A stretch of 26,281 nucleotides of DNA from a virus, in IMG/VR virus record IMGVR_UViG_3300005253_000398, positions 1 through 26,281 of that record; one strand, written 5' to 3'. The position numbers were made by a program, and so were the translations under genes. Below, in pieces: positions 21,934-22,424 of this stretch (the stretch's first letter is position 1; each line of letters opens with the position of its first letter). Below the pieces are notes generated by a model, which searched no databases, was not told where the DNA came from, and saw nothing but the letters and a program-made list of their open reading frames with translations.

Positions 21934-22022
21934 AGCACGCCTCCGGTCTGTGATCGCGTTCGCCAGCGCCAGCGCTTGCATCTGATGAATGTCCCATCCA
22001 GATGAGACGTGAATAATCAGCG

Positions 22023-22051
22023 GTAATACAGATCGGGGATTAGGTTGTCAA
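22023..22051 (-). promoter_or_regulatory. Promoter candidate directly upstream of the capsid gene (P2)
   Basis: On the minus strand TTGACA (22051-22046) is followed after exactly 17 bases by TATTAC (22028-22023), a perfect -35 and a four-of-six -10. Transcription would begin near 22016 and reach the capsid start at 21933 with a leader of about 80 bases. The element lies just after the last hairpin of the structured RNA region, so it looks like a separate promoter for capsid-gene transcription and not part of the RNA. Confidence 0.55.
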
Positions 22052-22054
22052 GAA

Positions 22055-22390
22055 AGTTGGCGACGACCCACTCTGGCTAGCCTTGTGGATCGTCGCCTGA
22101 GGCATTTTTAGCGGACCTTTTCAGCACTCCGCCCCGGAGCCTTAACCCGCTTGACGCCCACCCGTAGGCCCGAGCGTGCTCGGCGTAATTCAAGCGGCGG
22201 CCCCCGGTCTACATCCTTTCGGGTAGCAGCGCCCCTCTCCGAAAAAAGGGAACGGTTCTATCCAAGGGGCCGCCTGGCGCGTCTCAACGTGGCGGCCCTC
22301 GTTTTGCTCCCTTGCGGGTGGCAGCGGCGCTCTCTTCAAGAGAACGCCGACAGACACGGAGAGCCGCCGTTGGGGGGTTGTCCAGTACCC
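22055..22390 (-). ncRNA. Putative structured noncoding RNA or capsid leader with tandem GNRA-hairpin domains
   Basis: Read on the minus strand this segment can form a chain of GC-rich stems. Domain A (22368-22291) closes by GGCGGC with GCCGCC plus CTC with GAG. It contains an 11-bp hairpin (22349-22325) and a CCC-GCAA-GGG hairpin (22318-22309). Domain B (22274-22196) closes by a perfect 9-bp stem (GGCGGCCCC with GGGGCCGCC) and contains a CTAC/GTAG hairpin with a GAAA loop (22226-22209). The 3' halves of A and B match at 27 of 35 positions with a 95-base period. Downstream are a stem CTCCG/CGGAG inside AGCGG/CCGCT (22151-22110) and an 8-bp stem GGCGACGA/TCGTCGCC (22097-22059). A promoter lies just upstream and a second one just downstream. 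No open frame here looks coding. I do not recognise the RNA class. Confidence 0.5.
22059..22097. terminator. Strong hairpin at the 3' end of the structured RNA region
   Basis: An 8-bp perfect stem (ggcgacga at 22059-22066, tcgtcgcc at 22090-22097) with a loop containing the palindrome GGCTAGCC. On the minus strand it is followed by aactttctt, a poor U-tract. On the plus strand a run of five T follows seven bases later. It may end or protect the upstream RNA, but it is not a textbook intrinsic terminator in either direction. Confidence 0.35.
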
Positions 22391-22396
22391 GAATTA

Positions 22397-22424
22397 AATG
22401 TACCACGATTTCATTTAGTGTCAA
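22397..22424 (-). promoter_or_regulatory. Promoter candidate for the structured RNA (P1)
   Basis: On the minus strand TTGACA (22424-22419) is followed after 16 bases by TACATT (22402-22397). The expected start is close to 22390, immediately before the first stem of the structured RNA. A GGGTAC motif sits at the expected start (22389-22384), the same motif that is repeated upstream at 22725-22958. A weaker pair, TTGACG (22482-22477) and GATAAC (22458-22453) with an 18-base spacer, lies further upstream. Confidence 0.5.

Follow-up and report, generated by a model that had tools for sequence, protein, structure and literature searches.

A tandemly duplicated three-way-junction module of an RNA family absent from Rfam, within a predicted non-coding RNA between the protease and capsid genes of a phage

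The window analysed here, i.e., the whole stretch of DNA, is a 26,281-bp virus record from IMG/VR in which the late genes lie on the minus strand (Table 1). The protease and capsid genes are separated on this strand by a gap of 1,073 bp (protease end 23055, capsid start 21981) that contains short ORFs only. Seven of these were tested, and neither Pfam matches nor significant PHROGs matches were found; a 46-aa ORF lying over unit 1 of the RNA described below has a weak PHROGs match, phrog_33998, with an E of 0.034. A blastn comparison of the gap with phage and plasmid collections gave no match, and a tRNA search of the window found none. The claim of the first-pass annotation that more than 1 kb without genes separates protease and capsid is borne out, as no ORF among those tested belongs to a recognised family, but its premise that these two genes normally lie close together fails in this clade, many relatives having 290–990 bp there. 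The gap also carries a 21-nt inverted repeat (22716-22736/22916-22936, 90% complementary, 179 nt apart), and GTAC is over-represented in it, with seven occurrences in 1,073 bp versus 36 in the whole window.

Table 1. Positions of the genes, RNA elements and promoter-like sites in the window.
Feature	Position	Strand	Description and basis
Portal gene	25911-23800	minus	
Head maturation protease gene	23885-23055	minus	
Promoter-like site of the RNA, TTGACA-16-TACATT, TG before -10	22397..22424	minus	expected start near 22390
Predicted structured RNA, about 336 nt	22055..22390	minus	fold z; strongest in unit 1 and 3' hairpin
Three-way-junction unit 1	22291..22368	minus	P1 GGCGGCTCTC/GAGGGCCGCC, P2 hairpin, P3 TGC-CACCCGCAAGGGA-GCA; fold z -4.4
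Three-way-junction unit 2	22196..22274	minus	P1 GGCGGCCCC/GGGGCCGCC, P2 hairpin, P3 CTGC-TACCCGAAAGGAT-GTAG
Middle segment, possible stems without statistical support	22130..22195	minus	z -0.9 for 22130-22205
Strong 3' hairpin GGCGACGATCCAC/GTGGGTCGTCGCC, then AACTTTCTT	22059..22097	minus	z -6.0
Capsid promoter-like site TTGACA-17-TATTAC, outside the RNA	22023..22051	minus	17-nt-spaced like sites before capsid in relatives
Capsid leader with hairpin GTCTCAT-CTGG-ATGGGAC, outside the RNA	21982..22022	minus	alignment to L053
HK97-type capsid gene	21981-20668	minus	tail genes beyond

A GC-rich fold on the minus strand between the two genes had been claimed earlier, with shuffled sequence proposed as its control. 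The segment folds at -161.5 kcal/mol with a z of -3.81 and none of 100 shuffles equally good, so the claim passes this control; the fold of the plus strand is weaker (z -2.70). In 120-nt windows (background mean 0.0, sd 0.85) z reaches -2.3 to -2.8 over unit 1 and -2.9 over the 3' hairpin, which carry the signal; the sequence between them is no better than shuffled. Both promoter-like sites described earlier, TTGACA-16-TACATT at the 5' side (22424-22397) and TTGACA-17-TATTAC at the 3' side (22051-22023), are present. The former directly precedes the GC-rich block and agrees with the consensus at 10/12 positions, but such a consensus match is only weak evidence because two sites of this kind were found in 1.5 kb against 1.1 expected. 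The 3' hairpin is probably a weak intrinsic terminator; the T run after it is weak and below what the terminator scan detects.

The 5' half of the RNA is, by computation, a tandem duplication of a three-way junction of about 78 nt, built from a stem (P1) and two hairpins (P2 and P3), with UACCCGNAAGGAU as the core of P3. The layout of the repeat is P1 GGCGGC.../...GCCGCC, a J1/2 strand of approximately 8–11 nt, P2, and P3 with a CCC-GNAA-GGR core. Units 1 and 2 are similar to each other over 44 nt (77% identity, period 95). Folded alone, unit 2 reaches a z of only -1.5 and is not significantly stable, and an alternative fold of the full RNA, combining the 5' arm of unit 1 with the 3' arm of unit 2, beats two separate modules by 3.5 kcal/mol, so that either fold may dominate.

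IMG/VR was scanned with DNA patterns for the P3 core, and the flanks of the sites were then scored for P1, P2 and P3 by a descriptor. The first scans gave 45 distinct sites, 11 of them with the full P1-P2-P3 junction (score of at least 45) versus 0.58 expected with shuffled flanks; at a score of at least 50 the figures were eight and 0.05. The last scan added, among the matches listed, L259, and L212 as a weaker case. In a relaxed scan of 5.7 Mb on both strands the members stood apart from all other sites, the next of which scored 42. Altogether, the same junction is present, once each, in at least 12 contigs besides the window (L120, L122, L128, L129, L131, L132, L134, L138, L139, L144, L158, and L259), plus the weaker L212, and the P1-P2-P3 junction, the UACCCGNAAGGAU core and covarying stems are common to the 12 contigs and both window units. 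Each of the 11 carriers checked has a single P3 core, whereas the window has two. Because the search for members started from the P3 core, conservation of this core is partly built in and not independent; independent evidence is limited to P1, P2 and the outer P3 pairs, the helices of which were picked by pairing score, a choice addressed by the shuffled-flank control. The flanks beyond the module are not conserved, and therefore relatives exist for the module but not for the 336-nt RNA as a whole.

Most matches to the P3 pattern are due to chance and coding, because the core also reads ATRKDA. A look-alike site in Macromonas phage BK-30P was rejected, being inside a 591-codon ORF, as were L130, L133, L113, L140, L145, L141/L162, L147, L154, and the L196/L201/L203/L204 group, in which the P3 core lacks the full junction or is likely coding. 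A stretch common to the four contigs of the latter group, GGGTCGGTCCTACCCGCAAGGATGGACGCGGTG, contains the same core and is probably conserved coding sequence.

Since MAFFT alignments do not align P1, a structural alignment of 14 modules (the 12 outside members and the two window units) was made by hand for counting pairs. Over these modules P1 is paired at 110/112 positions, with three to five pair types per position and its sequence almost entirely replaced, and the P3 stem is paired at 55/55, the types being CUGC/GCAG, AAGC/GCUU, AGGC/GCCU, CUUC/GAAG, and GAGC/GCUU. When arms were exchanged between members, P1 pairing dropped to 53.4 (sd 6.3); the second arm-swap figure, to be set against the 55/55 of the P3 stem, is 41.2 (sd 3.1). 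Free folding gave the same junction in all 12 outside members. When G.U and A.C are given equal scores, the P1 helices of the members contain 15 G.U versus four A.C, and the best non-member helices 67 versus 83; this excess of G.U over A.C favours the minus strand of the window as the RNA strand. Structure, family and strand are supported in this way by computation.

Absence of the RNA from the related phages searched was likewise established computationally. In 44 IMG/VR records related by capsid or portal, as well as in Sinorhizobium phages Aussie and StopSmel and phage Mwe-Yong1, the P3 core was not found, apart from one coding chance match. L053, the nearest relative by capsid (69%), has a protease-capsid gap of 152 bp with a promoter and leader only and no RNA. 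The first-pass annotation had proposed collecting related protease-capsid intervals; the gaps were compared, but the window RNA was absent from the capsid and portal relatives, the junction being present in unrelated contigs instead. Given this absence and the short gap of L053, the RNA has the appearance of a cassette that was placed ahead of a separate capsid promoter. The simplest history would be that the cassette was inserted after the protease stop and before the capsid promoter, or was lost in the relatives, with the module then duplicated.

In the carriers the module adjoins genes of various kinds: terminase (L129, L134, and L138), lysis genes (L139, L158, and L259), an outer-membrane protein gene (L144), and other genes in further carriers. 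It is antisense to both flanking genes in L138, L139, and L259, which implies its own transcription. In L134, a contig partly similar to a Paracoccus plasmid, TTGACA-16-TATGGT lies upstream of the module (one found versus 0.0 expected). The module of L128 (11509-11415) is located inside a coding-looking ORF for a DnaJ-like zinc-finger protein, and that of L131 (10052-10139) perhaps also lies inside a coding-looking ORF; such a position would be unusual for an independent RNA. The module was not found in annotated phages with terminases related to those of L134 and L129, nor in 388 genomes of the phylum of L052, the sole prophage-like genome match, which are probably not the right hosts. It is also worth mentioning that the ORF for the terminase large subunit in L138 (3575-6139) contains a LAGLIDADG-like domain, perhaps an intein.

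Immediately upstream of the capsid gene, a segment of 56 bp reaching into this gene is 80% identical to L053 (E 1e-7), and the leader hairpin of the latter, GTCTCCG-CTGG-CGGGGAC, has two pairs changed on both sides relative to the window. A promoter-like TTG(A/T)(C/G)N-17 nt-TA box precedes the capsid gene at 15 of 56 non-redundant loci versus 0.1 expected, the pattern having been written after examples were seen; these are the window (22051-21982), L006, L007, L010, L014, L019, L023, L053, L054, L065, L068, L070, L071, L095, and L105. In many cases a hairpin, for instance CCCCGGACACCTGTCCGGGG, comes after the box. In L006, L007, L010, L014, L018, L019, and L105, direct repeats CCTTCTTANNCCTTCTTAAAC about 10 bp apart, possibly regulator sites, lie before the capsid promoter. 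The gaps of L006, L007, L010, and L012 have fold z values of -4 to -5.4, with no sequence similarity to the window RNA.

The earlier annotation had left a choice between an independent non-coding RNA and a regulated capsid leader. As a cis-acting leader, the RNA would be the 5' untranslated region of the capsid mRNA and control capsid expression, a reading suggested by its location on the capsid strand, where it ends 74 bp before the capsid start, and by the structured intervals of 300–400 nt, several with z of -4 to -5, that relatives have there. However, the strong hairpin and a second promoter-like site separate the RNA from the capsid gene, L053 and L054 have the capsid promoter and leader hairpin but not the RNA, and no relative checked has the RNA upstream of its capsid gene, while other carriers place the module by quite different genes, three times antisense to both neighbours. 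The leader is therefore unlikely, and of the two options the independent RNA is favoured on account of the 3' hairpin, the separate promoter, the RNA-free relatives and the antisense placement in three contigs.

Neither need the conserved unit be an RNA at all: its hairpins would form in DNA too, and its occurrence both between genes and, for L128 and perhaps L131, within coding sequence could point to a single-stranded DNA element or a short mobile palindromic element. Yet the P1 sequence is not conserved, unlike mobile-element ends, members have more G.U than A.C, and there is one copy per contig, which makes such an element quite improbable. A protein-coding origin, in which the similarity reflects conserved amino acids (AATRKGAKRGPP/AATRKDVDRGPP) of one or more small genes and the fold is incidental, is hardly credible: although GCTACCCGNAAGGATGC reads ATRKDA in one frame, most chance P3 matches code for ATRKDA, and the 46-aa ORF covers unit 1, the frame is broken differently in each member, the ORFs here have no significant Pfam or PHROGs match, and P1 pairing with changed sequence is left unexplained. 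Finally, the RNA could serve as a decoy for a CsrA/RsmA-type protein, considered because the AAGGAUG of P3 resembles the CsrA consensus RUACARGGAUGU (PMC6692469 among others); the core GNAAGGAUG is present in 12/14 aligned modules and AAAGGAUGU in unit 2, and two copies would suit a dimer. This is nevertheless very improbable, since the predicted P3 has this GG of the GGA in base pairs rather than in a loop, so that several GGA motifs exposed in hairpin loops are not seen; L120 has GGGC without GGA there, a CsrA gene was found in 0/13 contigs, and the conserved CCC and GNAA would be left unexplained.

The preferred reading, held with a probability of about 0.7, is that 22390-22055 on the minus strand is an independent non-coding phage RNA gene, a cassette between the protease and capsid genes with a duplicated module of a family that is absent from Rfam and extends over otherwise unrelated phages. 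The first-pass view, in which the minus strand carries an unrecognised structured RNA preceded by a promoter-like site of its own, gains support from the similar modules of other phages and their compensatory changes. The window RNA is likely a separate transcript, which would be made from its own promoter-like site and end at the strong hairpin just before the capsid promoter. It probably acts in trans. As a tentative mechanism, rather less likely than not and suggested by the conserved hairpin core of P3 on a variable scaffold and the lack of a fixed neighbour gene, the P3 hairpin displayed by the junction may bind a host or phage protein or RNA and titrate or recruit this partner, the duplication giving two binding sites. 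More speculative still is the picture of an undescribed RNA family that has spread horizontally among unrelated phages, was duplicated here, and captures a specific host protein or RNA via P3, thereby favouring infection.

To our knowledge few small structured phage RNAs are known. If confirmed, the present one would offer a motif that can be searched for, with its strand and boundaries defined, as well as a naturally bivalent version, and its transcript and binding partner would be directly testable; head-gene intervals of phages could then be regarded as able to carry non-coding cassettes.

Among known RNA families, the Rfam 15 scan of the window gave no match at the gathering threshold and a single chance match (E 8.5) at a relaxed one, and there were no Rfam matches on the module in L120 and six member loci. 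The scan with the Rfam covariance models proposed earlier thus upholds the unrecognised status of the RNA and agrees with the earlier remark that no match to GOLLD, ROOL or HEARO is seen by eye. The C4 antisense RNA (RF01695), listed for Proteobacteria and phages (PMC2864571), is, like the module, a short phage RNA of roughly 80 nt, but it was rejected because its covariance model does not match the module (0/12 contigs at E up to 10). GOLLD and ROOL, which occur in phages and prophages and have no known function (PMC12286853), resemble the window RNA in being phage non-coding RNAs; unlike it they are far larger, about 660 to over 800 nt (PMC12286853), often near tRNA islands, and in Rfam. Decoys of the CsrB/RsmZ type share with the window RNA a possible multivalent display of hairpins with AAGGAUG, but in the module the GGA is paired in the prediction and missing in one member, and the contigs have no CsrA gene. 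The packaging RNA of phi29 is a phage RNA built on a three-way junction. In contrast to it, the module has no Rfam match, and the window phage, which has an HK97-like capsid, belongs to a different type; the two RNAs have no more in common than the general plan of a three-way junction, and some modules adjoin terminase.
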